From Hirsutella rhossiliensis (taxonomy: Eukaryota; Ascomycota; Sordariomycetes; Hypocreales; Ophiocordycipitaceae), in the NCBI RefSeq assembly GCF_020360975.1, contig NW_025408669.1:2790001-2854000 (forward strand): a stretch of 64,000 bases of DNA. Reading direction: 5' to 3'. Below are positions 28,368 to 54,894 of the stretch, one piece after another. The notes beneath the pieces are model-generated. The model had not been told where the DNA came from and did not search any database. It worked only from the letters and a program-made list of their open reading frames with translations. The position numbers were made by a program, and so were the translations under genes. The stretch's first letter is position 1. Each line of letters starts with the position of its first letter.

Positions 28368-29916
28368 ATGACGCGCCGAGCACGCCATTCCGCCATCTCT
28401 TACGACTCGGACGCGTCTTACTCCCCGAGAACGAATTTGACGATGGTGGTCTCTTTGACAAAGTTGAGCCCTTCACTCGGATACGTATGCGGAGGCAACG
28501 GATGTAGAGGACTTGAACTTCGATGACGCAGACGGATTCGTCGACGCTGACGTTGAAGACCAAGTCCAGCTCTTCGGTGGCAACGTTCATCCACCTGAGT
28601 ACTACCGGGAAGCCGTTGAGAAATTCAACGAGACCGCCTACGAAGCTCAAGACTATAGCGACGGTAGTCTACTGCTCCTCGATGCCTGCGACGCACAATG
28701 GCGCCAGTACGTCACCAACGACATCATGTCCCTTATGACTCCCAGCCTCTAACATGTAATGGTCCTACCCTCAGGTACTGCGAGGTGCTGGGTTGTGACC
28801 CCAAAAATGTTTGGAGTCTGTCTCGAGTCCAGCTCCTGCGGCTTTTGTATAACTTTTTTGACTGGTCCCTCAACCAGAAGGTCGGTAAGGATGGCAGGAA
28901 AAGGCGAGGAACGAGGAAGAGCAGCTCTTTGAGCACATACTGGAAAGTCTTCCGACTCGTCTTCGAGAGAGCCACTGGAGACAAACTCGAGCCGAAACTA
29001 AATCGGCGTATGCACAAGGTACAGCCCGATCCCTCCGAATAATAGGTCACAAGGTAACCCTGCAGGTTCTCCGAGACCTCTCCAAAAAACATGACTTGAG
29101 CGACCAGAGGCGAGCGAATCGATGCATGACGATCGAAGATCTCAAGGAGCAAATCGAAACGACAATTAGCACGACAAAAAAATCGTTCAGGCTTGGGGAA
29201 CTTCGGATCCTTGCTGTTCTCTTTCTCCTTCTTCTTGCACCCGCTGGAGCTCGCCCCACATCCATCCTGCGTCTCCGGTTTGGAGACATCCGGCTCGCAC
29301 TGGTGAAAGACCCAGAAGGTGGACCGCATAATATTTTGATTCGCTTCACCTTAGCCTTCACGAAAACGTACCTCGGTGTCAAAGATGCGTAAGGACGCCA
29401 GAAACGCCGTGCTTCATCTGCTCGTAGGATATGGCGCTGACGCGAATCTAGGAAAACATTTCCTCTTCCAGAGACCTTAGCCGACCCTTCCTTGCTACTC
29501 AATCCTCACATCTTCCTGCTAGGCATTCTTTTCCGCCATCGCGCGTTCCGAGCAACAAGTCTCAATTCACCCGCACAGCTTGCCAATCTTGATATCCACC
29601 CTGAGGAGCGGAGCTACCTCTGCCGCTCAAGGACGATCTAAAAGACACATATATATTCCGACGGGCTATGAAAACCTTTACCGGCTATGAGCTATCCCAG
29701 GACAAGCCTCTTTCTTACCAGATGATTGCACAATGGATCAGAAGGGTTGGCGAAATATTGGGGTTGGAATACCCCACCATCCCCTACAACTTGCGTTATA
29801 ATGCGGCCAATGAGTTCGATCGAAGTGGTTCGTCAAGTCCTCCAATCACGATAGCCTTGTTGCTTACTCCAGCTTCAGCCGATATCAGCGAGTCGCTGCG
29901 AAATCTTGCTCTAGAC
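28368..29916 (+). pseudogene. DUF3435 (tyrosine-recombinase-like) gene, 5' part, interrupted
   Basis: The first ATG is at 28368. Conserved DUF3435 blocks appear in order: VEDQVQLFGGNVHPPEYY, NFFDW.LNQKVGKDGRKR, TYWKVFRLVFERATGDKLEP, GARPTSILRLRFGDI, GGPHNILIRFTLAFTKTYLG, KTFPLPE and PYNLRYNAANEFDRSG. Three introns are still recognisable: 28707-28774, 29019-29065 and 29389-29451. Frameshifts lie near 28430-28480 and near 29612. The arginines at 29252 (ARPTS) and 29794 (NLRY) match the two arginine boxes of tyrosine recombinases. The reading ends at LRNLALD (29916), where Helitron sequence starts; the matching 3' part lies at 50661-51572. DUF3435 includes the Starship captain recombinases, but I see no Starship boundary here. 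Confidence 0.85.
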
Positions 29917-29932
29917 GAGGGGAAGGCTCGCC

Positions 29933-29970
29933 AGCCGCGGCTCGCGCAAAGAGGCCTTTCGGAACGAAAG
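29933..29970 (+). repeat. Left terminal structure of Helitron copy 1
   Basis: Ten-base palindrome AGCCGCGGCT, a linker containing GCGCAAAGAG, then 17-bp terminal repeat GCCTTTCGGAACGAAAG. It differs at two bases from the left repeat of copy 2. Confidence 0.75.
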
Positions 29971-30278
29971 TTGGCGATGGCGACAGGAGAAAGTCGGGGA
30001 GAGGAGAGAGTTGGCGACAGGAGATAGGAGACAGGGGAAGTGAGAGGAAGACAGGAAGAAGAGTGAGATAAGAGATATGAGATGGAGATCCGGCGAGAGA
30101 CGTAGAGCATTATCGTGAGTGAAATCGAGACAGAGCGTCAGAGAGGCAGCCTAGGCCGCTGCAAGGGAGATTTTGCTTGCAAAGGCGCAAAGGGCGTGGA
30201 GAGGCGGCAGGGGTGAAGAGAGTTGTGGGTGGGTAATGCATGTGTGGGCGAGTGGAAGGCTCTGAGGATTTACAGGTG

Positions 30279-31869
30279 CTATAAGTGGTGGATATAAACA
30301 GAATAAGGAGTATATTGGAGAAGTTTTGACTGGATTGTCTTTGTGAAAAGGAGAGCAAGAGGAGAAGGAAATATCCCATTAGGGCCTTTCGCACTTGAGT
30401 TTGAGGATGATGAAACATGTTCCTTGTCATGTTGTGTTGTTTCGTTCGTTGCTTTACAGAATATTCTTGGGCGGATGTCGGGCGCGGTGCGGTCGGGAAG
30501 AGATTGACGCCGGAGGTCTGATAGGGCCAGAGGCGGATGTGGCTGGGTGATTGACTGGCTCGGTGTCCGTCTCTGAGTCTCCGGGGTCTTCGTGGGACAG
30601 AAGGAGGAAGTGTCGGATTTGGCGGGGCCTCGACTATCACAGGCGGCGACTATGGTGGAAATTTCTGGAGAAAGTCGCGGTCTCTTGGTTGGGGTTTGGT
30701 CGGGATCGGGCAATGACCGCTTTGATGTCATCATAAGGGGATCGACTGACCTAGATGCAGGCGGCGTGGGGGAGGCGCCGCTTGGGGCGGCATTGCGTTT
30801 TTTGGTAGAGGTAAACCTGGCCAACGCATCGCTATAGTCCGAGGGGTTGCCGACTGAGCCCTTGGGTGTCGTCGGCAGTAGCTGTGTCGCAGAAGCCTGG
30901 TTGGACATGGCCCTGTCAAGGAAAGTCCATGTATCGGGGACGACGATGAAGATATAGTCTTGCTCGAAGGCCGGGGCATGTGTCATGATCTGGTGATCGA
31001 GTAAGCCGGCGATTTTGCCCGTGCAGGTGAGGAGAGCGTTCGGCTGGAACTGGCTATCGCGCCTCTCGGTCATCTTCTTGCATAGGGAGGTCCAAGGATT
31101 GGCGTGAATGGGAAGATGACGAAAAGTTGAAAGGGATGAAAGCCCTTGAAGGGTGTTTGCCCGGAATCCCAGGACAGATAAAGGTCGAGAGCTGGACAAA
31201 GCCGCAACAGCTCAGCTGGTGTCGTCAAGGGCCGCAGCCGAGTTTCCATGCAGAAGGTCGCGGCCGGAACCGATGACAGGTCCCGTGAAGGAGACAATGG
31301 GTTGTATCGCTGGGAAGGCATCCGCCGAGCCGAGGGTGCGAGGATGACTCTGTGGCCATCGTCAGAGATGGTAGTGGTGACGGAGGTCTGGAGCATACAC
31401 CTACGGCTGGTAGCTGTGGTCGCGGACGATGAGAGCCGGGATGGTGTATTCTGTAATGTTGTCATCCTCCGACTCGAAGCTATCACGTCGCTCGATTTCC
31501 CACGTCAGGGCAAAGGGATGAACACGGCCGACCATAAAGAACCACTGCTCGGTCCATTCCGAGGATTATCTGTTGGTTGTATATGGAAATATTAAGGCTC
31601 AAGAAGATGCAGGTCGATGGATTGTCAGGATCTGACCGGATTGCTGCATACTCTGGAGTCGACAGCCATGAGGGCGTTGGAAGGAAGACCCTCGCTAGGG
31701 TTTCTGCGTTGAGCCCTTTGACACGATGCTCATTCTGGTAGGCGAACCTAGACGGGCAGCCGGGCTGGACAAAGGCCATCATGGACATGTCGGCGCCAGC
31801 ATTTTTCTGGCTGTCAAGAGGTTGCCGCGGGGAGGACGAGGTATCGACGTTGAGCTGGGAGGCCGACAT
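30279..31869 (-). pseudogene. Helitron-borne accessory gene, copy 1 (unknown family)
   Basis: A minus-strand gene divergent from the helicase gene. The ATG at 31869 opens with MSASQLN. The N-terminal block includes MSMMAFVQPGCPSRF, HRVKGLNAETLARVFLPTPSWL and FLSLNISIYNQ. A middle block holds LLRLCPALDLYLSWDSG and GFHPF. A C-terminal block holds QFQPNALLTCTGKIAGLL and IFIVVPDTWTFLDRA, then a Ser/Pro-rich tail with TPTKRPRLSP, a possible nuclear signal. The three blocks lie in different frames, joined by at least one likely intron (GTAGGT after SYQP, same site as copy 2) and probable frameshifts. I do not recognise the family. Close homologues lie in copy 2 and at 32.5-32.8 kb. Confidence 0.6.
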
Positions 31870-32449
31870 CGTGAGAACATGGCAGATGTGGTCACCGTGG
31901 AAGTGTAAAGGAGGGTTAGGCAGAGTAGAGGTAGGCATCCTATAAAGCAGGTTTTCTTGCTGCTCGAAAGAGGGCTCGTGGCTCGGGTCGGGGAGACTTG
32001 AGAGTCAGTGAATGCTACCTAGGTGATAGATCAGAAGCGGGGGTATGCGGGAATGAGCTGGCGAGGTTCTCGAGCAGTCTCGACCATCTGGTTCTGTGGT
32101 CGTGAGTGAAGTAGGGAGCCGGGGGTTGGAAGTTGAGTAGGGGTGATGGCTATGTTGCGAGAAGTTGGAGGTCGGCGAACGGTAAGGTTAGTGTGGGTAA
32201 GACTGCGGAGAAAGAAAGTCCAGTAGTCCCCTTCGGTGTCATCGTTGCATGGAGTAGATAGCAAAGGGGGCAATAACGAATGAGAGTGAAGGAAAGAAAG
32301 AGGTTATGGTAGTATTGCAGGACTCCCTTTTTGACGGTCGTCGGTAGTTGGATGGGCATTGCGTGCGGCTGAGCGAGGCGGGTGCCGACCGTGTCGAGTC
32401 TACTATTGGGACACGGTGAAGTCGGATATATGGGTCGACCTGAGGAGGA

Positions 32450-32790
32450 GGATGCGAGTTGGTCACGAGAACTTTCCAAGAGGGTTTGCAAGTCGAGACT
32501 CCGGTGGCTAGCGACTACAAGAGGACAGGCAGGGGGGTCCTGGCTATCGCTTTAGCATTAAGGCCGTTGATGCGACATTGGTGCTGGCGAGGGAGCAAAT
32601 CTAGAAGGGTAGTCCGGCTGCATGAGGGACGTCATGGACATGTTATCGCCGGCAGCCTTGTGGCTGTTGCTCGACGAGGCGGATTGGCGGGTATTGATGG
32701 TGAACTGATGCGCAAGGTTGGTAGGATGGTGTTGGAAGGGCTGAAGAGTATGGTTTGAAGTGTGCGGCAGGCGGTTGTCGCGGCCATCTC
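32450..32790 (-). pseudogene. Second fragment of the accessory family within copy 1
   Basis: Minus-strand pieces match the N-terminal block of the accessory gene: GDNMSMTSLMQPDYPSRFA, then in another frame CRINGLNAKAIART, corresponding to HRVKGLNAETLARV in the neighbouring gene. A frameshift separates them, and I could not follow the gene further. It implies a local duplication or a second acquisition of this gene. Confidence 0.55.
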
Positions 32791-34089
32791 CATGTGCCGG
32801 AGGTCGGCAGTGGCCAGGATTCGCTGGAGTGCGCAAAGAGAGCACGGCGATGGAAGGGTCGCTTTTGGCAAAGCCGGGTAGCAGGTCGCACGTGGAGACC
32901 AGGCGAGGCCGGGACGGTGGACGCACATAGATAGGCATGGTAACGGGGAATATAGAGGGTAGTATTGCATCGCCTCGGTACCATAGGGAAGCATTTTATA
33001 GGAAGCTATAAGGAAGAAACGCCACGGCCATGAGGGAAGTGATGGTTAGGAGCTTCCCATTCGGGAGAAGTAGCGTCGTCAACAAGCGAGACTGTCCAAG
33101 TGGAGGTGCTCCGAGCCAAAGCTTTATAGCCTGTTGCCAATTTACGGCAGTCGACGTCGAGGAGGCAGCAGCATGGCGGACAGTCCTGCAGTGAAGTTAA
33201 GCGAGGCGGTTGCTCACCCTGAAGCCTGTTCGTTGTCAGTCGGGGATGGAGAAGAGGGTGAGAACGTGAGCGGTCGGGTTCGGGGCTCGGAGATGGTGCG
33301 ACAGGAGCCGGTGTAGATGTGGTGGCAGCTTCTGAGAGGGGCCGCAGAGCACGGGGGGAGAGCCTGGGACGGTTACGAAGATACGAATCACGGGCGAATG
33401 CGGCATCAACGTTCCGGCCGATTCAGCCTAGGAAACCTGTGGTTGAAGACACCGCATGGAGACAGCACGCAGAAGCAATTGCGAGGTCGTTGCCGAGAAG
33501 ACCGCCGCGAGGCGGTTTGCGGTCAAACAGAGCACGGAAGTTCCATAATATGGTTAGCAGCGGAAGTTCCGCGCAACATCAGTCACCGGGTCAGCTTCCG
33601 AGGCCCCTGTTGCCTAGGGAACGTGGAGATATGGGGTAGCGGACTCTGATCGTCCGCCCTCATCGGCACTTTCTGCCTCAGGAGGAGATCCTGAAGATGA
33701 GGAGCAACGTGTTACGGCGGCGGCGGGCGATGTCCCGAGTGTTCATTCGAAGGAGGTACCGAAGCTTCGATCCATCCAGCCTAGGGAACCGGTATTCGAC
33801 AACTTAAGAGAAAACGGGCAATTAGCAGCAGCGATTGCGTCTGGTTTGCCCAAGCGCCGTCGGGGACGGAGTTGGCGGGTAAAGGAGTACCAGGCCGCAG
33901 GGGTGTCTCCAACGCAGCAGGTACGGCGCAGCATCCGGGGCCGTCTCCTGTGGGGGTGGGCGACGCCGCGGCAGAGCCAGCGGACGCTTCGCTGAGCGGG
34001 CGGAGGCTGCAGCAAAGGGAGGTGGGCGGCTCATCGCGGGTGGCGGCTGGGGAGCCCGTGCAGTTTGATCGGCAGCAAGAACGAGGAGA

Positions 34090-37000
34090 GTGCTGGAAAG
34101 GGCAAGGACTGAGGTCAAGGTTCGGCGTGGAAAACGTTCGCCAGCACGGCCCGGTGCCTGTCCAGTGCAAAGGGCCGGATGGCGTGTCAGGGATGCGCAC
34201 GTAGTCGGGCAGTCGTCGCCAAAGCTGCCGCATCCGACGGCTTGCGAAGAAGCGAATCAGCCACGGAGAGAAGAAATCATGGATCGGAGGCGGCCCCGGA
34301 GGCGGCCCCGGAGGCGGGAGAAGAGAAAACGTCTTCCTGGTCCGGACGAGCGCCCGAGAAAACAGATTCGGAGTGGAATCGGAAGGCAGAGGAGTCGGGA
34401 GCTGCGGGCCGAAGACCTGGCGAGTGTGCTGCGTTTTTTGGAGGAAGACTTCGCCATGAAGGAGAGGCTGTCTAACGATCAGACGTGGTGTACGCCAATA
34501 CCGCACGACAGGAAGGTGTCGACGGTGCGGGATTTTTATCAGGCGTTCCACGATGCGAGCACGTTGCCGATACGGACCTGCATGATAGCTACCGCAAGCG
34601 TACGAGAAAAGAGCTGAGGGAGATCAGATGGGATCAATGGCTGTCAAGCTGCGTGCCAGAGGGCGGCCGCTCACCATTTTCATGCCGGAGCTGCTTTCCC
34701 GAAGGCGAGCCCGTGTCGGTGTGTGCGGAGTGTGCCCGATGCCTGGCGCGCGGAGTCTGTCGCCGGCGGTCCATCTTCACACTCGCCTTGGCTGTGAGCA
34801 CATGTTCCCTGACGAGCTCAAGGGACTCACGCTGGTCGAAGAGAAGCTCGTCTCGCTCAACTCCTGCTATGGGTTTGTCACGAGATATAGCATTCCGGGC
34901 GGGCAGAGGCAGGCCGTGAGGTATCCGAGGCACGTCAAGGGCCACATCACAGTGTTTCCCAACAACGTGCAGGAGCTGGCGACCAAGGTGCTCCCGCACC
35001 CCCTTTTGCAAGCACTGGACGAGATCCACGTTTCGTGGCAGGGCGTGGAGAAGCCGGCACCGAGCGACCTGTCGAGTCTCTTGTCGGTGAGGCGGCGGGT
35101 CGTCGAGAGGGCTCTTGTTTGGCTGAAGAGGAGCAACCCCCACTACGCCGAGATCGAGATCGACGTGGCGGAGATGGAGAGTTGGGAGACCCGATAGACG
35201 GGGTGCCGGCCTTGGTGTATGATCGCATGGAGCGGAACGAGCCGTCCGCATGGGAGAAAACGCGGACGGCGCACGTTGTGCCGCCCACGGAGCGCGCCAT
35301 GGACGACGAGGGGTCGGTGGAGATCGAGGAACTCTTCGCTCTGCTCAACCAAAGGCAGGAAACGGGAGGCGAGGCTGAAGGGCACGGGCCCAACGAAGAA
35401 GGCGCGGGTCGTGATGGAGTTGGTGCTAGCCCCGATCAGAACGTTCGACCAATCAACGAGGTGACGTCTTCCGGCATGTTTGCTGGACGGACCGCCAGAC
35501 GTGGCGGATGTCGAGAAGCTGCGGTTTGCCTGTGACGCTGTTGGCGCAGGTGCCGACGACGGCCGCGCGGGCCCGAGAACGTGGGTCGGATCCTCGGTGG
35601 GGTCGAGGGCGTGGCGACGATGGCAGTGAGCCATACATTCGAGTCTCGCGGGGATGAGTTTGCCGACTCCTTTGAGACGTCCTTCTTCGCCAGAACGTTC
35701 CCGACCCTGTTCCCATTTGGCGTTGGGGACCAAGGCTGGCCGAAGAGGCCATAGCCGAGGCGGGAAGGCCCTACCAACTTGCGAGGCACCGGTAGAGCTG
35801 CTGAGGCAGGGGCGGCAGCGGAGACATCGTATCCTCCCGAAGCTTGAACCTCCGGATTTGGGCCGACATCGTGCTCCGGCGCCATGGTGGCCGGTTTGCG
35901 TTGCACCACATATTTGCATTTCTCGTCTTCAACATGGGGGTGCGGTCGAGGAACCGCCGCGTCAGCATGCTGAGTGTGGCGAGGAAGGACTTCGGCAAGG
36001 TCGAGCGCGTTGCCCGCTCGATGACCGCGCAAAGGTTAGCGGCGGCGAGGGTCGAGTTGGAGAGCTCGGGCAAGACGACCGATGAGGGCGTGAAGGAGCT
36101 TCTCAGGAGCCTCTCGCTGTACGGCCACCGGCAACCCATGTCGAGAGAGGTTCGGCTCAATATGCGGCGGAAAATCCAGTCGCTCATCGTTGGCTACGGC
36201 GTTCCGGCCATCTGGTTCACCATCAACCCAAACGACATTACGAACCCGGTGAAGCTGCGACTGGCGGCATATCGGACACGCGATCCCGGCGCGGCCGAGG
36301 AGTTCCTAGAAGGCCTTGGGAGTGCGTACAAGCGGACAAGGCTGGCCATGTCCGATCCGATGAGCGCCGCCGTATTCTTCCACCGGGAGATGAAGCTGTT
36401 CTTCGATCATTACGTGAAGGTCGGAGAAGAGTCGGTATTCGGGCGCATCGGCAAGTACTATGGCGCTGTGGAGACCAACGAACGAGGGGCGCTTCATGTT
36501 CACGGCTTGCTCTGGTTGCACGGAAACGCGCATCTCAGCTCGATGCTTGCCGACATCCACGGGGAGGATCAGGCGGCGTATCGCGAGCGAATCATACGAT
36601 ACGTCGATAGTGTCTTCTCCGAGGTAAGAATAGCTAAGACGTGTCACTGAGAACCTGAATTGCTCGTCCGATGGACAAACGGGGCCAGGCTGACGTGCAA
36701 GATAGGATCTGGATCAGGAAGGGTTCTGCGCCGTGCAAGCGGAGCGATCTGTGACGTCCGATATTTCCTCCCTGCTGGACAACACCGAGCAGTTTTCGGC
36801 CGCATTTGACGAGGAGGCCAACTTCTGTGCCGGCGCTACACAGGTTCACACGCATAGCCCGACCTGTGTCAAGTATTCCTTGGGCAAAGGAGCGCGGAAA
36901 GGAATCTATGCCGGTTTAAGTCTCCATGGAGGTTGGTCGACAAGACCGCCATCACGGCAGACGGGGTGTTGCAGATCCGGAGGACTCACAGCATGGTCAA

Positions 37001-40000
37001 TCGATGGAACAAGGCTATCGCTGTTGGGCTCCGGCACAACCACGACATTTCCTTCATTGCGACGCAGCGCAAGACCATGGCCCTTATGTATTATGTCACG
37101 AACTACGCGACGAAGGTGGAGGACCCGGTGTGGAAGCGTGTGGCGGCCGCGGCCGATCTCCTGGCCGCCTCAACGGGTGACGGCACGGCCAACGGAGGAC
37201 AGGACGACGGTGGAGGTGCTGTTGGCGATGACGCCGCCAAGGGGAACAGGACGCGACAGTTCTTGATGAGGGTGGCGAATCGTGTGTTCACGGAGCGTCC
37301 GCTATCTCAGGTCGAGGTCGTCGCTCATCTTCTTGGATATCCGGCCGAGTTCACCAACAGCAGCGCCTGGGCGTACCTGAACACATCTCTGCTGTACTGG
37401 GAAGTCTTTCGACGGTGGCCGTATCTCCGACGAGCAAGTGGCGCGGCGGCCATAGATGATACTCTGGATGAGTCGGTCGTTGTCGAAGAAGCAGGCCTGA
37501 GGATCTCCCACGTTGAGGCGTACCAGCACCGGGGAGAGCTCCTGCGAGGGCTATGCTTATACGACTACATATCGCTCGTTAGACTAAAACGCACCAGTAA
37601 GGATGAGAGCTGTGCGGCCTGGGGGGAGGTGCCCTTCGAGGATGGATGGGCGCCAGGAGACGCTGGGTCCAGGTGCTCAGGCGGCCGGGCAAGCATGCTA
37701 CCGTCTGCCTCGATGGCTACCTGAGCAAGGACTTCGGCCACAACGACGACGAGGAGTCGTGCCACCGGAGGTGTGTATAGCAACCGCCCTGCCGGCAGGC
37801 ATCATCAGAGTGGCTAACCTCCCCCCCCTTCCCCTTAAAGGGCAGCCGTGCAGCATCTTGCGCTATTTGTGCCGTGGGAGTCCTTTCTGTGCGAAGAAAC
37901 AGGTGAGATCAATAGCATCTGGGAGCGGGCGCGAGAGGCGCTGGCCCCGAGAATATCATGTCTCGTCGACAACGTGCAGCTGCTTCGACGATCAGCCGAA
38001 GACGCAAAGCGCGACGCCAAGCAATGGGCGGCCTCATCCGGCGATGGCGATTCCACGGTCGCCCACGTCGAGGAGGGCGAGACAGGCGAGGCGGGCGCAG
38101 AATTTGCAGCGACGTATCGGTCCAACAACATCGGAGACGCAACGCGCCTGATCGACGTCGTCCGAGGCGCAGTGGGCACGAATCAGGTGACGGCCAAGTC
38201 GCCGGAGCTCATGGCAATGATGCGGCAGCTCTGTCGATTCCAGCAATCGGCGCTCTGCTCAACGGCCGAGCTCGAGGCCATCGCGATTCCCGAACAAGGG
38301 TTGAGGTGCATAAGCATGCCAGGGCGGGTATTTTCCGGGGCCGCACTACCGCCGCAGGATCAGGTCAAGGCTATCAAGTCGCAGCAGATAAGTGCGTCGA
38401 GGAAAGGGAGAGAATGATCCAAGGCGTACAAACCACAGTCGCAGTCCGGGAAAGCGATCGCCGAGCTGCGTTGCGGAGGGTGATGACCGGCTTCGGGAGG
38501 ACGACGTCGAAATGACGACAGCCGACTCCGACGAGACGGCTAGCGACGCAGAAGCGGGAATGCGCGTCCAGCTTGGCCCATCGACCTCCTTCTTCGCGGC
38601 GGGCAAGGAGTTGTCAACACGGCTAACGCTGAACAAGAGGCAGTCGATCGCTTTCCTAATAATATGCCGCCAGCTCGATTTGATGCGACAAACGAATAGG
38701 GCGATGCCGGCCAGCTCTGCCAGTTCGTCGGCGGCGAGGGGGCACCGGCAAGTCGCGGATCATTGGGGCACTCGTCGAGCTGTTCAGTGGGAAGAGCCTT
38801 TCGAATCCTCTGCTGATCACGGCGACGTCAGGGACTGCCGCGGCGCAGATCAACGGCATCACGATCCACCCGCCTGCGGGTTCACTAAAGACCAAGGGCG
38901 GGCGGCGCGAACACAGCCAAGGACCTTGACGGGGTGCGGCTGACAAAACGGGCGGAGCGGTTCATCCACGGCCAGTCTCGGATGGACTGGCAGGAGAAGG
39001 ACGTGCTTGTCATCGACGAGGTGAGCATGCTCGAGCGCGGACGCTGCACGCCATAAACGAGCGACTCTGTCGGCTTCGCGGATCGCAGAAAGATTTCGGG
39101 GATCCCCATCGTCCTCTTCTGCGGAGACTTTCAGCAGTTCCGGCCGGTCCAAGAGAGGTCGATCGTCCTGCCGAGCGCGGCCATCTCGTGGGACGTAGAC
39201 AACTCGTTCAAGGCCGAGCAGCGGCACCAGCACGACAAAGCGCACGCGCTGTGGAAGAGATTCACGACGGTCGTCATGTTGAACGAGCAAATGCGCGCCG
39301 CCGGTGATCCGGAATTGCAGGGGCTGCTGAAGCGGATCCAGCAGGGTGTGCAGGACCGCACGGATCTGGACCTCCTCAACTCAGGTGCTACCGCGAGGGC
39401 AGGCGGATCCCTTGGGAGACTGGCATCACCGTGGTGACGCCGCTGAACAGGAATCGGTGGAACCTAAACATGGAGGCAAGCTTGGCGTTCCGGGTCCAGC
39501 AGCGGTCGACGATGCGCATCTTCATCTCCGAGCACAAGTGGAAGGAGGGCCTGCCGACCGAGGAAGAAGCGATCATGGTACTCAATCAAGGCGACGATAG
39601 CGCGATCCCCGTGCCGGCCGTCTTCATGTTCGTGGCCGGGATGCCGGTCGTCGTGAACCACAACACCCATCAGGGGCTGAAGTTGGTGAACGGCGCCGGC
39701 TACTCGGCGGTGGAGGTCATTGTCGACAAGGCGTCCCCAGGGCATCGAATCTCGTCCGACATGACGATCCACTTCGGGCCGCCGGCGGGGATATTACTGG
39801 AATCGGCGACGACAAAGGACCTCCACTTCGTCGGGATGCCGCCGGGCACGATCTTGTTAACGCCGATGAGCGTCAGGATACACTGCCAACGAAAGCGGCC
39901 GTGGCAGCAGAACGACGTCAGCCGGAAGGGATTGCCGTGCGCAGCAGCCTTCGCCTGCACGGACTACAAGGTGCAGGGCAGAACGCCAGAGCGCGTGGCC

Positions 40001-40273
40001 CTGGAGCTGCGGGGACACGGACGACGAAAGTCGATGGAAGGGCCGTGCCTCGCAATGCGACCCGTACAGCTTATATGTGCAGCTATCGCGCTGTCGAACG
40101 CTAGACGGCATCACGCTCGTGTCCAAGGTGCGGGAGAGACTTGGGGCAACCGAGTCCCCGAAGAGATGACCGCCGCGCAGGCCAGGCTGGAGGTGCTAAG
40201 CGAGAGGACTGTCGAGGAAGCTTTGCGTCGGTCGGATGGCGACGCTGAAGAGTCAAGGAGAGTTGTCAGGTGA
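34090..40273 (+). pseudogene. Helitron Rep/PIF1-like helicase gene, copy 1
   Basis: Order along the gene: a variable, charged N-terminal region (start uncertain, conserved part from about 34279); DUF6570 block with FPDELKGLTLVEEKL, NSCYGFVTRY, HVKGHITVFPNNVQEL and DEIHVSWQG (34.8-35.05 kb); Helitron_like_N/Rep domain with FNMGVRSRNRRVSML, PAIWFTINPNDI and the HUH motif LHVHGLLWL (His codons 36495-36503); Y2 motif YYVTNYATK (37089-37115); then PIF1-like helicase with IDEVSMLE, PIVLFCGDFQQF, VVTPLNRNRWNLNMEASLAF and TDYKVQG. Two introns are conserved with copy 2 (36624-36705 and 37771-37840). Many one-base frameshifts (first near 34586) break it. Family role: rolling-circle nicking and unwinding of the element. 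Confidence 0.85.
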
Positions 40274-40695
40274 GGTGACGAGGGGAGAAGACGGAGGCGC
40301 CGGCGGGCAAGAAGACAAGGGCACTGGGCAGCAGCGATCAACGAGGGGCGACTTAGACTTGAAGGAAGAACCCGCTAGAAAGGCATGAACGAAAAGGGCA
40401 AAGACAAAAGACGCAAGTTTTAGACACAATAAGAAAACCGGCGGACGAAAGGAAAAAGGTTGGCATTGGCATTGGCAAGGGGTAAACAGGAGTATAAACG
40501 GGGGGGAAACAGGGCAAGGCATGAGAGGGGCAAGAGAAGGCGGCAGCGACCAATGATGAGGGAGGGACGGAAGGGTCGGCGACCAATCACACGGGATCTT
40601 TTATTCCGAAAGAGGAAATAAATCAGCCAATCAGAGGCGGAGGATGTGGGGGTGAAGCAGTCTGGGGCCTTTTTTCCCCGCGCGCTAATGAAGTC

Positions 40696-40759
40696 CTTTC
40701 GTTCCTCACGGGAGAGGCAACCCAACAGGGGTTGCGCAAAGAGCCTTGAGGAACGAAAG
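40696..40759 (+). repeat. Junction of Helitron copies 1 and 2 (facing terminal repeats)
   Basis: The right terminal repeat of copy 1, CTTTCGTTCCTCA (40696-40708), is followed within 35 bp by a hairpin CAACCC-aacag-GGGTTG (40718-40734), the sequence GCGCAAAGAG and the left terminal repeat of copy 2, GCCTTGAGGAACGAAAG (40743-40759). The spacer resembles the left end of copy 1, so the elements abut directly. Confidence 0.8.
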
Positions 40760-40864
40760 TCTACACAAGGGGCAGATGTACAGAGGCAGAAAGGTAACGG
40801 CGACCAACGGGCAGTCAGGCTGGACGAAAAACACTTCCCATTTAAGAAGTTATAGCAGCGTACG

Positions 40865-42279
40865 CTATTCCATTTCCGTAGCTTTCTTATATAGGTGGCG
40901 GTTTCGAAGGGGACGGGCCGGCGAGCCCAAGCCATGGGCGACAATGGAATCGAGGGAAGAGTCCCGTAGGTCAGGACCCGGTTTAGGGTTGTCCGGCTCA
41001 TGAGCGGCGGAGGCAGCCGAAACAGAGAACGACTGGGTGGCAGAGGAGGCGGGCTTAGGGGAAGACGAGATCACCGGGGCCTTATGCAGCAGACACGGTC
41101 GCCTCGTCGCCGTATCGGCAGGCTCAGGGCAATATCGTTTCCCGGGCGGCGTAAGGTGGCCGGTCGAGGGCGAAGCCGAAGCCAAAGGTGGAGGACTGGG
41201 CGGGAGCCAGGGTGATCAAAGACAAAGAGGCAGCGCGCATGTCCTGGAAGGCCGCGGAAGCGGAGGAAGCTTGTTGCCTCTGTGGCGTAGAGAGAAGCGG
41301 TGCCATCGTGGTGACGGCGGCGGCGGCCTTGTCGAGAAAAGTCCAGGAATCTGGGACGACGATAAAGACGTTGTCCCGGTAAGAGCCCGGGGGGTAGAGC
41401 ATAACGTCATGGCGGAGCAGGCCAGCGACCTTGCCTGTGCAGGTAAAGGGGACGTTAGGCTGAAATTGAGAGTCCTGCCCAAGACGGCCCAGGGTTAGCG
41501 CGAATAGGGAAGATAACGAAGACCTGAACGGGTGGAAGCCCTGAAGGGGACCTTATTGGGCATCCCAGGAGCGACATAGGTAGAAAGGCGGACAAAGCCG
41601 CAACAGTTAAGTTGGGCGGCGTCTAGACCGGCAGTAGGTCCCGCCGCAGCGAGGAGTGGCCGGTGCCGACGACAAGGCCGGTAAAGGAAACAATAGGCGG
41701 GATGCAGGGAAGTCGCCCATAGAGGCAAAGAGCCTAGGAGAACGCTTCAGGCCCATCTTAGCCATATACCGTTCCGTCGGCACTCGCGAAGGGTCAGGGC
41801 ACGGCTTACGGCTGGTAGCCCTGATCGCGGACGGCAAGGGCGGGCATCGTATAGAGAAGGGTGCGGCCCGTGCCAGACTCCAGGCCGTCGCGTTGCTCAA
41901 CCTCCCATGCGAGCGCGTAGGGGTGGACGCGGGCATGCATGAAAAACCACTCTTCGGTCCAGTCGGAGGGATCAATAGGCTGGCCGTAGATGGAGAGGTT
42001 GAGGCTAAAAAAGACGGATGTCGGGGAATCAGCGGCATCCGATCGGAGGGGCGCATATTCCGTCGCGAGCAGCCAGGCGGGCGGAGGCAGGAAGACGCGG
42101 GCCATGGCCTCGGCGTTAAGACCCCTAATGCGGTGGTCGTCCTGGTGGGAAAATCTAGCAGGACAGTCCGGCTGGACAAAAGACATCATAGACATCTCAC
42201 CGCCAGCGCCCCTTTGGCTATCGAGCGGCTTTCGAAGGTGCGGTGCGGGCATATCGGTAGGAAGTAGAGAGGAAGACAT
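40865..42279 (-). pseudogene. Helitron-borne accessory gene, copy 2 (unknown family)
   Basis: Minus strand, ATG at 42279 (MSSSLLPTDMPAPHL). The first exon, to about 41810, includes MSMMSFVQPDCPARF, HRIRGLNAEAMARVFLPPPAWLL, FFSLNLSIYGQ, DWTEEWFFMHARVHPYALAWEV and MPALAVRDQGYQP, where a GTAAGC splice donor overlaps the in-frame stop. A later block has QFQPNVPFTCTGKVAGLL and VFIVVPDSWTFLDKA, followed by a Ser/Ala-rich tail. The three blocks match copy 1 in order and wording, so the gene has been kept by selection or common descent. Function is unknown. The TCTGKVAGLL...VFIVVPDSWTF part could be a small beta-barrel such as an OB fold, which would suit a DNA-binding helper; this is a guess from pattern only. 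Some frame changes may be introns, so pseudogene status is not certain. Confidence 0.6.
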
Positions 42280-42885
42280 AGTGTATCTGCGCAGGTCGAT
42301 AGGCCAGTCGCACGCACTAAAAGGACGGGTTCTCGGCGTCAAGAAAGGAGTAGGGAAGAAGTCGAGCGTAAACGCACTTATAGTAGATCAATAGTGGTAT
42401 GGATTCGCCGGGAAGAGCGAGGAGCCTTGCCGCTGTAAGTAAGCAGACGTCAAAGAGATGCGTCGTGGTGTTGCGGAGCTGGGTACTGATCGGGCACCAA
42501 GGGCGACGCGGATTAAGGTGTCCGGCAGGGCTACCGGCATAGGATGCCGAAAACTAGGCCGTCGGCAGATAGGCCTGTCGATAGGTTCCAAAGGAAGCCC
42601 GGCAGGTCCGAGAGAGGAGAGGTCTAATGCAGAAAGGGGATATCAACAAGGAAGGATATAACCGTTAGTAGGAAGAATGCCAACACGGCAGAACGCCATT
42701 GCCAGGGAGCGAGACAATTTCGGGGCATATCCCGGGCGAAGGCTTCCCAATCTATCGTTCGTTTGCAGAGCCCTGCCGATAAGACAGCACCATCATGGGG
42801 GAGAATCGTAGCCGCGAGGTAAGGTCGGTGGCAGGAGAGTGCGAAACAGGGGCAGCAGCAGCGGCCGCTGCCGCGACGAGGAGGA

Positions 42886-43060
42886 TTGCGGCGGCGAGAT
42901 CGAGCGCAATGGACGAAGGGCCGAAGCGGGCGTCGGGCCACAAAGGTCAAGCAAACGCGGCACCCAGGTTCCGGCCTATTGAGGCCAAGCCGGCCGCCGC
43001 GGCCGACGAGGCCTCACGAAGAGAGCAGGCAGAGGCGCTCAAAAGAGCGTTGCCCAAGGA
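42886..43060 (+). repeat. Diverged direct repeat in the helicase 5' region, unit 1
   Basis: About 175 bp resembling 43617-43800. Both encode a block with GPKR..GH, RPIEAK and EASRREQAEAL.RA. The two units are diverged but co-linear, indicating an old internal duplication. Confidence 0.75.
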
Positions 43061-43616
43061 AGTCGGCGAGGCGGCCGGCCGCGGAGAAGGACGACGCATG
43101 TCAATGGTGCCTCCTCAAAGGGAGGGCGAGCGCGACGCTCAGCATCGACAAACGTGCGGGATATGCCTCTAATCATAGAAGCGGACGCTGTCAGATTAGG
43201 GCCGGTAAGTGCTGAGCCGGCCATGGGGGGTTTTGTGCCGTCCGTTGGCGCAGTGTTGGAGGGAGAAGGGGTTGCTCTACAAGCACCATCCGCCCCAGGG
43301 GTCTTGGTCAGGCGAAACGAAGGCCTAGGCGTCAGGGGATCTTCCGTTGTGGCCGGAGATGGCCCCGAGACCGTTCGGCCAGGCAACCTAGCGGTGGCAT
43401 GCAGCTGACTCTGAAGGGTCTTGTTGAGCGGACAACTGGCGCCGGGGAAACACGGGAGGGAGACCGACAAGTAGAAAGAGGATGAGATATCCGCTGGGAG
43501 AGCTGTCAGCACTCGCCGCAACCCATCCAGCCCAAAGAGATCAGGACGCGGCCGGGCACATCCCCTTTGGCGAGGGCGGGTCGTGCGTCGGGGCAGCGGT
43601 CGCCGCTACAACGAGT

Positions 43617-43800
43617 AGTACCGCGGACGCGAGCCGAAGTGCAACGGACGGGGGACCGAAGCGGGTGCTGGGCCACGAAGGTCGAGCGGGCCCGGCACGC
43701 AGGTTACGGCCTATCGAGGCGAAGCAGGCGCCGGTGTCCGAGGAGGCCTCACGAAGAGAACAGGCAGAAGCACTCGAAAGAGCGATGCCTCAGGGAAGCC
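43617..43800 (+). repeat. Diverged direct repeat in the helicase 5' region, unit 2
   Basis: Partner of 42886-43060. Further downstream (43.9-44.25 kb) shorter repeats encode a QSSGRL.PRP.RQA block preceded by QSI or QAI, so this part of the protein grows by tandem duplication. Confidence 0.75.
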
Positions 43801-46800
43801 GGCTAGGCAGTCGGCCGCGAGAAAATACGACGCGCGCCAATGGTGCCTCTTCAAATGGAGGGCAAGCGCGATGTTTAACAAGATTTCGGCTAGAGAATGT
43901 AAGCCAGCACTCGCCGCAACCCATCCAGCCCAGAGAGATCAGGAAGACGGCTGGACAAGGGCCCTCCTCAGACGAGGGTGGGTCGCATAGAGTCGTTAGG
44001 GGGCCCCTCGTCCAGTCAATCCGAGCGAAAGCGATGGAAGACAGAGCAGGAGGTCTGCAGTCATCCGGACGGTTATCACCACGGCCGTCACGCCAGGCAG
44101 GACAGGATCGGCCGGCAACGACACTCGGGTTATCCTCCACAGCCGTCAGGGAGCCCCCCGTGCAGGCAATCCAGCCCAAAGAGCCGGGAGATGGAGCAGG
44201 AGATACGCAGTCATCCGGACGGTTGCCACCACGTCCACCACGCCAGGCAGCGGTAGGAGAGGAGGATCGGCCGAGGCGAGTCGAGGCGGCGGCGAGATCT
44301 TCGGAGCCCGTGGAACAGAGAAAGAGGATCCGCGAGCCCGACCGAGACCAGCCCCCAACAAAACGTAGTCGACGCGGCCGTCAGAGGCAGAGGAGAAGTG
44401 AGCTACAGGTGGAAGACCTAGACAGCGTCTTACGTTATCTTGAGGAGGAATTCGCCGTAAAGGAGAGGCTATCCAACGAGCAAACCTGGTGCATACCAGT
44501 ACCGCATGAGAGGAAGGTGTCGACGGTACGACGTTTCTATCGGGCGTTCCACGACGTGGACACGCTGCCGATACAGAGGTGCATGCTATGCTACCGGAAG
44601 AGCACAAGAAAAGAGCTGAGGGAGACGGCATGGGACCGGTGGCTGTCGAGTCCCATTCCCAAGGGTGGGAGCTCGCCGTTTGCGTGCCGAGGCTGCTTCC
44701 GCGAGGGCGAGCCCGTCCCGCTCTGCGCGGAGTGTTCTCGACACCTGGCGCGCGGGGTGCTGTCGCCGGCGGCGCTGCTCCATGGCCGCCTCGGTTGCGA
44801 GCACGTCTTCCCCGACGAGCTCAAGGGCCTAACGCCGGTGGAGGAGAAGCTGATCGCGCTGAACTCATGTTATGGGTTCGTCACAAGGTACAACGTCTCA
44901 GGCGGCCAGAAGCAGACGCTAACGTACCCCAAGCACGTCAAGGGCCACATCACGGTGTTCCCGAACAACGTGCAAGAGCTGGCAACGAACGTGCTGCCGC
45001 ATCCGCTCGTCCGGGTGATGGACGAGATCCACGTCTCGTGGCAGGGGCGGTAAGGCCGACACCATGACATGTCGAGCCTCCTGTCGGTGAGGCGGCGAGT
45101 GGTCGAGAGGGCCCTCATCTGGTTGAAGAGGAACAACCCACACTACGCCGGGATCGAGATCGACGCGGCGGAGATGGAGAGCTGGGGAGACTCGGCCGAC
45201 GGGGTGCCGCCGTTGGTGTACGGGCGCCTCGAGCGGAACGAGGCGTCGGCGTGGGAGAAGACGCGGACGGCGCACGTCGTGCCGCCCACGGAGCGGGCCA
45301 TGGACGACGAGGGGGCGGTAGAGATCGAAGAAATCCTCTCTCTGCTCAACCAAGGGGGAAGCACGACGATTCGCGAGGACGACGAGCCAGAGTCAAACGA
45401 GGTAGACGAGGCGCGTGGCCAGAGCGGCGGCGAGCCTAATCAAGATGCGAAGACGATCAACGAGGTGACCTCATCCGGAATATTTGCGTTGGACGGGCCG
45501 CCCGACGTGGCCGACGTGGACAAATTGCGGTTCGCGTGCGATGTCGTCCGCGAAGGCGCAGGCGACGGCGGCACGGGCCCGAGGACGTGGGTGCAAACCT
45601 CGGCAAGGGGGCAGCTAGGGCACGCCGATGGTTCTGAGCCGCACATACGCATTCGCCGCGGGGATGAATTCGCCGACTCGTTCGAAGCCTCCTTTTTCGC
45701 AAAGACCTTTCCCACGCTGTTGCCATTTGGCGTCGGAGGGCCGCGACCGGTCGAAGAGGCAACCGTACAGTTGGGCAGAGGCACCGCCAACACGCGCGAG
45801 GCGGAAGAGGCCGGGACGCGGGACCTCTTGTCGTCTCGGAACATGAGCCTTCGGACGTGGGCCGACACGGTGTTGCGACGCCACGGCGGCCGGTTCGCGA
45901 CGCACCACATCTTCGCGTTCCTCGTCTTCAACATGGGCGTGCGGTCGAGGAACCGTCGCGTCAGCATGCTGAGCGTGACGAGGAAGAACTTCCGCAAGGT
46001 GGAGCGCATCGTACGGTCGCTGACCGCAGACGGATTGGCGGCAGCTAGAGCCGAGCTGGAGAGCACAGGCAAGACGACCGACGACGCCGTAAAGGAGCTC
46101 CTCAGGAGCCTTTCGTTGTATGGCTATCGTCAGCCCATGTCCAGAGAGCTCCGTCTCGGGATGCGGCATAGGATCTTGGCGCTCATCGTCCGTTACGGCG
46201 TGCCCGCGATCTGGTTCACGATCAACCCAAACGACATCACGAAACCGGTGAAGCTCCGACTGGCAGCGCACCGCGCGCGCGACCGAAGCGGCCGAGGAGT
46301 TTCTGCGGAGCCTCGATAAGTCATTCAAACGGGTGCGGCTATCCGTCTCCGACCCGATGAGCTCAGCCATCTTCTTCCACCGGGAGATGACGCTGTTCTT
46401 TGAGCATTACGTCAACATGGGGGGGGAGTCGGTCTTCGGCCGCATCAGCCAGTACTATGGCGCCGTGGAAACCAACGAGCGAGGATCTCTTCATGTCCAC
46501 GGGCTGCTCTGGCTAGACGGAAACACGCGCCTGAGCTCGATGCTTGCCGACTCAGACGGGGAGGAACAGGCGGCCTACCGCGAGCGAATCGTCCGCTACG
46601 TCGATAGTGTCTTTAGCGAGGTAACGGCAGGGCGTCGTAGTCATAGGCCAAGAGGACGCAGGCTGACGCGGAAACTAGGACTTAGACCAGGAAGGGTTCT
46701 GCGCCGTCCAGGCGGAGCGTTCGGCGACGTCTGATATATCATCCCTGCTGGACAGTGCCGAGCAGTTCTCGGCCTCATTCGAAGAGGAAGCCAATTTCTG

Positions 46801-49800
46801 CGCCGGCGCGACGCAGATCCACACCCATAGCCCGACATGCGTCAAGTACTCCCTGGGCAACAAGGGGCGAAAGGGCGACCTCTGTCGCTTCAAGGCGCCA
46901 TGGAAGCTGGTCGAGGAGACTGCCTTCTCATCGGACGGTGTACTGCGGATCCGCAGGACACACCCCATGGTGAACCGGTGGAACAAGGCCATCGCCGTGG
47001 CTCCGCCACAACCATGACATTTCCTTCATAGCGACGCAACGGAAGACCATGGCGCTCGTCTACTACGTCACGAACTACGCGACCAAGGTGGAGGACCCGA
47101 CGTGGAAGCGCGTCGCCGCCGCGGCGGAACTGCTGCCCGTTCTCTCGGCCGGCGGCCAGCCGGGTGCCGGGGATGACGCCCGTGGTGGCGTCGTCGGCGA
47201 CGGCGATGGAACTAAAAACAAGACGCGGCAGTTTCTGATGAGAGTGGCGAATCGGGTATTCACGGAGCGGGCTCTGTCACAAGTCGAGGTCGTCGCCCAT
47301 CTCCTGGGATACCTGAGCGAGTTCACGGGCAGCAGCGCCTGGGCGTACCTGAACGTGTCGGTGCTCTACTGGCACGTCTCCAGGCGGTGGCGACACCTTC
47401 GGCAGGAGAGCGGCACCGCGGTCGCAGACGTGTCCGTGGACGAGTCGGTCGTCGTGGATGAAGCAGGCGAACGGATCAGCTTCGCCGAGGCGTACCATCA
47501 TCGCGGACACGTCCTACGAGGCTTGTGCCTATATGACTATGTCTCGCTCGTTAGGCTCCAACGCGTCGGCAAGGAAGGGTGCTCCGGTGCCTGGGAGAGG
47601 TGCCGTTCGAGAGCGGCTGGGAGGCCGGTAGGGACTGGGTGCAGGTGTTAAGGCGGCCGGGAAAGCACGCCGTCGTCTGCCTTGACGGCTACCTAAGCAA
47701 GGATTTCGAGCAGGACGACGAGGAATCGGGCCATCGCAGGTAAGTTCGGCAAGACGGCGGGGCGAAGAGGGGTCGCGACGCGGGGGGGCTTACTGTGCCG
47801 TCGCAGAGCAGCCGTGCAGCATCTTGCTGCCCTGTTTGTGCCGTGGGAGGCCTTTCTCGGCGAAGAGCGAGGCGACATCAATGATATATGGAGGCGGGCG
47901 CGAGAGCAGCTGCCGCCGAGAACTCTCTGCCTCGTCGATAACGTTCAACTGCTCCGGCGGTCCGCCGAGGACGCAAGGCGAGACGCCAAGCAGTGGGCGG
48001 CCTCGGGCGGTGACGGGGATCCCGGCGGCGCTCTCGGCGCGGGGGAGGAGGGGGGCCAACACCCGGGGGACCACGACGCGGCCTCGGCGTACCAGTCCGA
48101 CAACGTCGGAAACGCAACGCGACTAATCGACGTCGTCCGAAGCGCGGCCGGAGCGAGCCAGATCACGGCGGATCGCGCGAGCTTTCGGGAATGATACAGC
48201 AGCTGTGCCGCTTCCAGCAATCAGCGCTGGTCTCGACCGCCGAGCTTCAGGCCGCCATCGTGAGGGAACGGGACGGGAGGCACATCGACATGCCGGGGCA
48301 GGTGTTTTCCGGGGCTGCGGTGCCGCCGCAGGACCAGGTCAAGGCCATCAAGTCGCAGCAGACATGCGCCTCTAGGGAGAGGGTGAAGATGATCCAGGGC
48401 ATACAAAGCATGGCCCCGGCCCACGGCACCGATCGTGGTGCAGCGGAGAGGAGCGTGCTGACCGGCTTCGGGGAGGAAGACGTGCAGATGACGCGAGCGG
48501 AAGCCGAGGAGACGGCAGGTAACGCGGGGGCTGGAATGGAAGTCCGCCTCGGCCCGTCGACCTCCTTCCTCGAGGCCGGGAAAGGCTTGACGACACGCTT
48601 GACGCTGAACAAGAAACAGGCGATCGCCTTCTCCATACTATGCCGCCACCTGGACTCGATGCGGCAAGGAGACGGAGGCGACGTCAGCCAGCTCTGCCAA
48701 TTCGTCGGCGGCGAGGGCGGCACCGGCAAGTCTCGCGTCATCGGAGCACTCGTGGGCCTTTTCGCCGCGAAGGGCATCTCGCCGCCTGCTGATAACGGCG
48801 ACGTCGGGGACCGCCGCGGCGCGGGTCAATGGCATCACCATCCACCCGCCTGCGGCTTCACCAGGACCAAGCGCCGGGCGCGAACACGGCGAGGGACGTC
48901 GACGGGGTGCGGTTGCCGAGGCAGGCGGAGCGGTTCGTTAACGGCCAGTCCAGGATGGACTGGCAGGATAGGACGTGCTCGTCATCGACGAGGTGAGCAT
49001 GCTCGGCGCGCGGACGCTGCACGCCGTCAACGAGCGGCTCTGCCAGCTGCGGGGATCGAAGCGGGACTTCGGGGGGATCCCCATCGTCCTCTTCTGCGGG
49101 GACTTCCACCAGTTCCGCCCCGTCCAGGAGAGGTCGATCCTGTTGCCGAGCGCGGCCGTCTCGTGGGACGAGGACAACTCGTTCAGTGCCGAGCAGCGGC
49201 ACCAGCACGACAAGGCGCACGCGCTGTGGAAGGGGTTCACGACCGTCGTCATTCTGGACGAGCAGATGCGCGCCGCCGGCGACCCGGAGCTGCGGCGGCT
49301 GCTGAAGCGGATCCGACGGGGCGTGCAGGACCACACGGACCTGGATCTCTCAACTCGAGGTGCCACCGGAAGGCAGGCGGATCCCGTGGGAGACGGGTAT
49401 CACGGTGGTGACGCCGCTCAACAGGAACCGGTGGAACCTCAACATGGAGGCGAGCCTGGCGTTCCAGATCCAGCAGCGGTCGACGGTGCGCATCTTCCTC
49501 CGAGCACAATGGAAGGACGGCCTGCCGACCGAGGAAGAGGCCATCATGATGTTGAACCAGGGCGACGACAGCGCGATCCCGGTGCCGGCCGTCTTCATGT
49601 TCGTGCCGGGGATGCCGGTCGTCGAACCACAACACCCACCAGGGGCTAAAGCTGGTGAACGGCGCCGGCTACACGGCGGCGGAGGTCATCGTCGACAAGG
49701 CGCACCCGGGCATCGGCTCGGCCGACATGGTGATCCACTTCGGCCGCCGGCGGCGATCATACTGGGGTCGGAGACGACCAAGGACTTCCGCTTCGTCGGG

Positions 49801-50636
49801 ATGCCGCCTGGCACCATCCTCCTGACGCCCATGAGCGTCAGGATCCAGTGTCACCGGAAGCGACCGTGGCAGCAGAACGACGTCAGCCGCAAGGGCCTGC
49901 CGTGCGCCGCCGCCTTCGCATGCACGGATTACAAGGTGCAGGGGGGGACGCTCGAGCGCGTCGCGCTCGAGCTGCGAGGGACGAGGACGATAAACGTCGG
50001 CGGACGTGCCGTCCCCTCGCAGTGCGACCCGTATAGCCTGTACGTGCAGCTGTCGCGGTGCCCGACGCTGGACGGCATCATGCTCGTGTCGAAGGTGCGA
50101 GAGAGGGACCTGGTGGGAAACCGGGTCCCCCGGGAGATGACGGCCGCACAAGCGAGGCTAGAGGAACTGAGCGACAGAACCGTCCGGGAGGCGCTGTGCT
50201 GGCTCGGCGACGACTTCGAATTGAATTCGCGCAGAAACAGAGAAGCCCTGGACAGGCATGAATTGCATGAATGACGTCGGACGCGGGAAACGGCCAACGT
50301 ATAAGCAAGAGACTTAAGGCAATGGACGTAACTGCCAGGCCAATCGGAGGCCAACCGGAAAGCGGAATTGGGGAATTTGAGCGGGAACGGCAACGGCTTT
50401 TCACACCCAACAGGAAGGCGGGATTCGCACAAAGGGCAAAGGGACAAGACGAAAGAGGGCAAACCTTTAGGCCAACCGGAAAGCAACCATTTTAAGACGA
50501 AACAAGACGAAAGAGGCAATTTTCAAGCCAACCGGAAAGCAGGCCGGGAGAAAAAGCCAACCAACGAGAAGCGGACAAAAGCTGGCGAATCAGGGGCGCG
50601 AATCCGGGGGGACAAAAAATCCGGGGGCATAAAGTC

Positions 50637-50653
50637 CTTTCGTTCCTCAAGGC
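50637..50653 (+). repeat. Right terminal repeat of Helitron copy 2
   Basis: CTTTCGTTCCTCAAGGC is the exact reverse complement of the left repeat at 40743-40759. It lies directly before the resumed DUF3435 coding sequence. Confidence 0.85.
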
Positions 50654-50660
50654 AAGGCAT

Positions 50661-51572
50661 CACGCCAATTCGAATCCCTTTCAGAAGCACTACCTGGGAC
50701 GGGAGGTTTGCGCGGATACTTGGGGTATTCTCCGGCGACAAAAACCACAGCAGGCGCTCATAAGGCAGGCCTGCAGCGTCGGCCACTCTATCAGCAAGCG
50801 GAGACCCACGGATCTCACAGCTGAACAAATAGCATCCGTGTCTACTGATCCTATCATCAAGCGACTAGAGCAAGACCTTCGGCATCATCGCCCAGGTTCA
50901 AAGAAGCACATGGAACTCCGCCGTCGACTGAGGAACGAGAAGCAAAGATTGAAGAGGGTGCTTAAGCAGAAGATTCGAGATGAATGGACTGCCAGACAGG
51001 CGGTGGACGACATTGAGGGGCAATTGCAAGGTATTGGGTTTGTCAAACAAGCGACTGTGAACACTCCCATTTGTCCTCAGCGACCGGCTCAAAAGCGATT
51101 GGTTGAGGCCCTCGCCGCTCCACTTGGCAACACGCTCGAAGGTCAATATCGACGGAGAGACAATGCTATCGCCGCCATCGTAGCTTATTGTATGGTCGAG
51201 GAAGGGCAGACGATCCGCGGCGCTCGAGCGTCGGTCGACTCAACTAGGCCTACTCTCATGAACGAACCGCCTATCAACAGCCCTCAACTCACGGCTCTGA
51301 TGTCCACCTTCATTAAGACAGTCACGGACAGGCCTCGAAGATGCTTCATCTGTGTCGGCAAGGCCCTTGATTTGACATCAGATGATGGGGCCGTGGAGGT
51401 TCTCATTCGCGAGTTTTACACTCCTGGAGACCTGTCCAAGCACTTCCGACGCAAGCACTTGTCGAATTTACGCGAGGGCGATGAGATTAGATGTTCGATC
51501 TGCGATTTGCCACTGGACCATATGGAGCATCTGCGGAACCATGCTCTACGAATACACGGAACAGTGTCCTAA
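50661..51572 (+). pseudogene. DUF3435 gene, 3' part, separated by the Helitrons
   Basis: The frame is open from 50661 (HANSNPFQKHYLGREVC) to the TAA at 51570-51572 with no damage. The HYLG tyrosine (codon 50691-50693) matches the nucleophile position of tyrosine recombinases. Next come KRRPTDLTAEQIASV, a basic coiled-coil-like region (KKHMELRRRLRNEKQRLKR) and two C2H2-type fingers at the end: CFIC...HFRRKH and CSIC...HLRNHALRIH. This is the usual C terminus of fungal DUF3435/C2H2 proteins and completes the part at 28368-29916. It has no start codon of its own upstream of a GTG at 50838. Confidence 0.85.
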
Positions 51573-52599: not shown

Positions 52600-52735
52600 G
52601 TAAGTACGTGCCGAACCTGAGCAGGGACTGAGCTACCCTGAGCAGGGGCTGAGCTACCCTGATCTGCCCTGAGCTGCCTGGAGCCGCCTGAGCCTGTCCT
52701 GAGCTGCCCTGAGCTGCCCTGGGTTGCCCGCTCCG
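52600..52735 (+). repeat. CCTGAGCTGC-type minisatellite
   Basis: About 130 bp of imperfect 10-15 bp units built on CCTGAGCTGC / CTGAGCTACC / GAGCAGGG. No coding role is visible. Confidence 0.8.
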
Positions 52736-54883: not shown

Positions 54884-54894
54884 GAACAGGTGGT

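Follow-up and report, generated by a model that had tools for sequence, protein, structure and literature searches.

Two abutting Helitron2-like elements split a DUF3435 recombinase gene, the probable captain of a multi-copy Starship-like element, in Hirsutella rhossiliensis

Organisation of the split gene

Hirsutella rhossiliensis is a nematode parasite belonging to the Ophiocordycipitaceae. In a stretch of 64,000 nucleotides from its genome (the window, C3:2790001-2854000, where C3 is contig NW_025408669.1 of assembly GCF_020360975.1), a gene for a DUF3435 recombinase, the class that includes Starship captains, lies in two parts on either side of an insert made up of two Helitrons (Table 1). 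The insert, which the original prediction from the window sequence had put at about 20.7 kb, measures 20,744 bp (29916-50659) and interrupts a GAT codon as GA|T (29914-29915 / 50660), flanked by A on the left and T on the right; because there is an A at both ends, its limits are uncertain by one base. The break is in an exon, after the YxxR box and before the tyrosine nucleophile. A base-by-base check of the coordinates, which placed the box I arginine codon at 29252-29254, the YNLR box at 29785-29796 (Y codon 29785-29787, R codon 29794-29796) and the codon of the nucleophile tyrosine at 50691-50693, bore out the predicted position of the break between the arginine boxes and the nucleophile. 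The two tyrosines are 37 residues apart when an inferred 51-bp intron is excluded, and the same spacing, taken from residue numbers, is 34-35 residues in Sanctuary and HhpA (PMC12506042; papers named here and below by PMC number are cited for the portions of their text that were available).

The 3' part, which the original prediction had described as open throughout, is indeed open as far as the stop codon, but the 5' part is not in a single frame: it contains two inferred GT-AG introns (29389-29451 and 29828-29878, the second of which is translated straight through in the database model P0002), and the frame also shifts at single-base indels. Comparison of the copies described below (the C5 copy left out) gave 21 gap columns for the left half, of which 17 coincide with homopolymers, and these gaps may be assembly errors.

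Table 1. Coordinates of the split gene, the inserted Helitrons and the surrounding Starship-like element in the window
Feature	Position	Strand	Remarks
Captain 5' part, DUF3435	28368..29915	+	PF11917 matches of 127.3 and 72.5 bits; carries box I arginine and YNLR box
Captain 3' part	50660..51572	+	Nucleophile tyrosine, DUF3435 C-terminal part, C2H2-finger-like tail; PF11917 E-value 6.8e-15, 105.4 bits
Helitron unit 1, ~10.8 kb	29916..40707	+	Inserted after A29915; 10-bp asymmetric inverted repeat 29961-29970 / 40696-40705
Unit 1 Rep (Helitron_like_N) open reading frame (ORF)	35844..36647	+	E-value 2e-42; HVHG at 36495
Helitron unit 2, ~9.95 kb	40709..50659	+	17-bp asymmetric inverted repeat 40743-40759 / 50637-50653
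Unit 2 Rep (Helitron_like_N) ORF	45069..46319	+	Helitron_like_N match
Unit 2 PIF1-like helicase ORF	48975..49649	+	PF05970 E-value 3.4e-8
Starship-like element, 5' edge and leader	27935..28367	+	433 bp before captain start codon; edge motif CTAATAAACTATGAGACGGCGG
Starship-like element, body	51573..64000	+	Common to sister copies; continues to window coordinate 74762 (C3:2864762)
Nested 2.36-kb element	54778..57136	.	105-bp terminal inverted repeats (99%); zinc-knuckle ORF 55974-56831

Uninterrupted copies and homologues

A search of the 81.8-Mb genome (40 contigs) gave, with the window included, 20 matches to the captain 5' part and 15 to the 3' part, and both halves were present in 13 other loci. 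Ten of these are 97-100% identical to the window copy (on C8, C10, C20 twice, C19, C30, C2, C18, C1 and C5 at 5.41 Mb), and three are more diverged, at 76-83% (C5:764298, C5:961759 and C5:2272201). In all 13 the left and right matches meet at one and the same base, so that the split is not a chance result, and the insert is therefore delimited as 29916-50659; this contiguity, together with Helitron_like_N domains in both units of the insert, agrees with the original prediction of one DUF3435 gene cut by tandem Helitrons. Six fragments that do not span the junction make up the other matches: three measure 110-249 bp (97-99% identity) and three are at 68-70% identity.

The same ten copies are nearest to the 5' half and to the 3' half, and so these copy lists, which are not a tree, do not place the halves in different lineages, an outcome that would have spoken against a single gene. 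Nor are the halves always separate genes elsewhere. Among 27 homologues selected for alignment from the best 120 of 153 proteins found, at least 25 have both halves in one protein: 25 fit a pattern spanning the split point in one chain, P0088 misses the pattern (Q for R) yet spans the split point, and in P0108 the segment after the split point is absent. Y253 and R256 are invariant in the 27, and Y307 is present in 90% or more. PF11917 matches both pieces of the window captain as well as the C10 copy, in which the match is unbroken at the split point. The best protein matches of the C10 captain exon are H. rhossiliensis proteins (100% identity over 85% and 95% over 94%), and a model of the homologue P0021 matches the Cre fold.

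Two Helitron2-like elements form the insert

The insert is two abutting Helitron2-like elements, with unit 2 directly behind unit 1, head to tail. Rep (HUH) and helicase genes, the hallmark of Helitrons, were found. In unit 2, HVHG (46492) lies behind the Rep ORF in another frame, and a Walker-A-like GEGGTGKS (48710) lies ahead of the helicase ORF; in unit 1, the helicase is indicated by DNA identity to unit 2, while a Pfam scan of one ORF in this region gave no match. Unit 1 starts with CGAGGGG and ends with TTCCTC, whereas unit 2 starts with CGGGAG and ends with AAGGCA, and the ends canonical for Helitron1 (5' TC and 3' CTRR) are absent from both. Both units do have the asymmetric terminal inverted repeat characteristic of Helitron2, of 10 bp in unit 1 and 17 bp in unit 2. 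Insertion took place at A|T without target duplication, since all 13 uninterrupted loci read straight from one flank of the insert to the other.

The start of unit 1 recurs elsewhere in the genome. With its first 3.6 kb as the query, 40 of 240 candidate matches were scored, so that more exist, and among the 40 other matches listed 35 begin at 29916, three at the fifth base and two later. The boundary between the units was located at 40707-40709, the first base of unit 2 being uncertain by one or two: the junction region has 54 other listed matches, of which 21 stop at 40701-40720 and 14 start at 40707-40708; two extend across the boundary as far as 40757, and those left over are shorter or displaced. 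The units share 76.7% identity over 5.9 kb and are therefore not a fresh duplication.

A single insertion that brought in both Helitrons as a composite is rather unlikely in our view. Unit 1-like DNA followed by unit 2-like DNA does occur in at least four other places (C7:3789043, C1:6274579, C7:3387306 and C7:3268810), which favours a composite, but the junction point in unit 1 differs among them, at query positions 345, 319, 310 and 318, respectively, versus about 408 here, and the order is reversed, unit 2 before unit 1, at C19:749582-755282. These differing junctions and the reverse order are consistent with repeated independent insertion at Helitron 3' ends. At the C19 locus, where DNA of the unit 2 family is followed by that of the unit 1 family, the 3' end CTTTCGTTCCTCAAGGC was seen twice at the junction. 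In addition, three consecutive Helitron 3'-end motifs were observed within about 70 bases on C3 downstream of the window (L036:6062-6130), which suggests that Helitrons repeatedly insert at each other's ends.

The units resemble Helitron2 and FoHeli3-5 of Fusarium oxysporum (PMC5148889) in their size (9-11 kb), in coding for Rep and a PIF1-type helicase, in having asymmetric terminal inverted repeats and no TC...CTRR ends, and in being inserted at or near other Helitrons. The units differ from these elements in their terminal letters, starting with CGAGGG or CGGGAG after an A and having CTTTCGTTCC near the 3' end, and in their target, A|T, which is that of canonical Helitrons.

A Starship-like element around the captain

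The original prediction had assigned the gene to DUF3435, a class that includes Starship captains. This was borne out and can be widened, since the gene occupies the place of a captain, ahead of all other genes in a multi-copy element that had not been recognised. The window and its sister copies are homologous from about 27935 onwards, where the 5' edge motif is found. This motif occurs at 11 loci, each time ahead of a captain, while a reversed-pattern control gave none; elsewhere in the genome, no occurrence was found with up to two mismatches allowed. In 10 of the 11 loci the start codon lies 420-430 bp from the motif; the C5 copy (near 5411484), at 2.3 kb, has about 1.85 kb of additional DNA between the edge and the start codon. 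The captain reads inward from the 5' edge, and Starships are described as large mobile units with the captain as the first gene beside this edge (PMC12506042, PMC12153272).

The left flanks of the copies are AT-rich and do not align with one another in place, and homology among the copies ends at or near [AT]TA[CT]T. Among the stretches examined, copies of the flanking repeat unoccupied by the element were found for nine of the 11 edges, on the 5' side only; the filter used gave no row for C19 and C2. Both 25600-27934 of the window and the left flanks of the ten sisters were observed to be AT-rich repeats with a GC content of 0.19-0.28, and repeats of this kind appear to be a recurrent target of the element. 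Measured from the edge, nested inserts included, the body extends for at least 21.2 kb in C10, 26.7 kb in C20 and 27.3 kb in C18. This exceeds the shared body of over about 15-20 kb looked for in a Starship by size, with cargo genes barely identified. Taken together, these features make it likely that the window holds a single copy of a multi-copy, Starship-like element, with a captain that is split here.

Several observations weigh against this interpretation. As far as the copies were read, neither a 3' end nor direct repeats were found for the element: C10 and a second copy on C3 are still 96.5% identical through the last 2.3 kb read, and a C19 piece diverges from both after about 740 bp. 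The empty-site comparison covers the 5' side in a single genome and includes no complete empty site. Few recognised Starship accessory genes (DUF3723, FRE, NLR, PLP) were found in the selected ORFs scanned, introns being unmodelled; the scan gave PF17111, presumably an NLR-type N-terminal domain, in L035:6124-6465, while Fungal_trans fell just short of the cut-off. As for the captains themselves, the C5 sister (near 5411484) gives two left matches because 29182-29330 are deleted, and this 149-bp deletion removes box I; both of the sister captains that were translated likewise carry frame breaks; only nine of 35 right-half gap columns among the copies are in homopolymers; and the stretch of the P0021 model containing the YxxR box and the nucleophile (344-422) is of low confidence.

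The unmapped 3' end would also suit a dispersed segmental repeat or a family of 'solo' DUF3435 genes, in which case the Helitrons would have inserted into an ordinary repeat rather than a Starship. The C2 copy, which shares only 27936-51573 within the 20 kb examined, points the same way, and such solo genes are reported as common (PMC12134995). Against this stand the near base-exact 5' edge at 11 places, at differing positions of the repeats, unoccupied repeat copies for nine of the 11 edges, and bodies common to three copies over 21 kb or more. Recurrent edge, unoccupied repeats and common bodies point to transposition of a large unit, and we regard a non-Starship origin as improbable.

The Starship-like element thus shares with known Starships an inward-reading captain, the YxxR box and spacing of the tyrosines, a Cre fold in a homologue, insertion into AT-rich repeats at a TTAC/ATAC-like site and many kilobases of common body. 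In Hephaestus (captain HhpA) and Sanctuary the captain is likewise near the 5' edge, at about 350 bp in Sanctuary compared with 433 bp here (PMC12506042). It differs in having at least 11 edges in one genome, although several copies per genome are known in some species (PMC12153272); in addition, the captain of the window copy is split, the tail of this copy is missing, and the 3' end and direct repeats are unmapped here.

Two further features were observed at the locus. In the C8, C19 and C30 copies and one C20 copy, only 54881-55368 of the nested 2.36-kb element is present. To the left of the AT-rich flank, 24129-25373 contains a 414-residue ORF without a Pfam match, whose start resembles a secretion signal by eye.

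Fate of the window copy

The captain would be a Cre-fold DUF3435 tyrosine recombinase that excises and inserts the element. A Helitron2-like element would have been copied by rolling circle into the A|T between the YxxR box and the nucleophile, and a second, related Helitron adjoins its 3' end exactly, probably owing to a frequent habit of these families of inserting at each other's 3' ends. The window copy would consequently produce no functional captain and be derelict in cis, although captains of sister copies could still act on its 5' end. That the split captain is still expressed, with the insert spliced out as a very long intron or with two partial proteins being made, is highly improbable: the 3' part is indeed open to its stop codon, but the insert has Helitron-like ends on both sides and Helitron genes inside, and a protein that has the R boxes and lacks the nucleophile tyrosine is not expected to catalyse the tyrosine recombinase reaction.

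The window copy also stops matching its sisters at C3:2864762 (window coordinate 74762). The next 150 bases of the sisters past this point occur at 15 places in the genome, on C3 only in another copy (3,010,460). For only three of the 15 is a mapped 5' edge no more than 30 kb away; captain-less pieces or copies stretched by inserts therefore seem to be common. The window copy therefore seems to be derelict twice over, lacking its tail as well as an intact captain, and the break in the captain is not necessarily the sole cause of immobility. A 33-base inverted-repeat mini-insert was observed at a TA in C10 (about 1730774-1730807) and C20 (about 779721-779754), and this TA is the one at which the window copy is cut off.

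As in derelict or degraded Starships, the captain is not intact and the element is presumed to be immobile in cis. Whereas the derelict cases described in the available text of PMC11623301 and PMC12134995 involve repeat-induced point mutation (RIP) and captain loss or pseudogenisation, the lesion here is a pair of Helitrons with no RIP signature.

Timing and RIP

The window captain differs from each of the ten sisters by only 4-12 substitutions in 2,310-2,459 compared sites, which is consistent with a recent event; substitutions private to a copy number three in the window and 0-6 in the others (C5 left out of the left-half counts). The prediction that the gene was probably intact until recently had been drawn from the open 3' part and is weakened by the frame changes of the 5' part, which are indistinguishable from assembly error. 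The composite RIP index is negative (-0.28 to -0.83) for the Helitron units and the Starship stretches tested, versus +1.43 to +1.84 for the AT-rich left flanks of the window and ten copies. Such RIP-free copies within RIP-saturated repeats therefore probably spread after RIP had stopped acting on repeats of this kind, or there has been no sexual cycle since. In the presumed asexual Verticillium dahliae, transposable elements in Starship regions are likewise without RIP (PMC12289983). The nine matches of the three diverged C5 captains each contain 1-8 TAG and 0-13 TAA stops and no TGA, as RIP would leave; judged by these stop counts the three captains may be RIP-damaged, and perhaps represent an older, RIP-damaged generation of the same lineage.

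Implications

Each of the players is of a known kind, and the novelty is modest. One scenario, which we offer as speculative and improbable, is that a Starship amplified to eleven or more near-identical copies in a RIP-less lineage has met a burst of Helitrons that makes captain-less passengers, movable in trans by sister captains, so that mobile elements would be limited by a second mobile element and not by host genome defence. The locus provides a natural captain mutant, defined to the base, in a genome that also holds ten near-identical copies without a break at that position (the C5 one carries a different deletion). Such a setting would allow tests of whether a Starship depends on its own captain and whether it moves in trans. 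The locus further presents a multi-copy Starship-like element without RIP marks adjoining RIP-saturated repeats, and a clear instance in which one genomic parasite disables a second.
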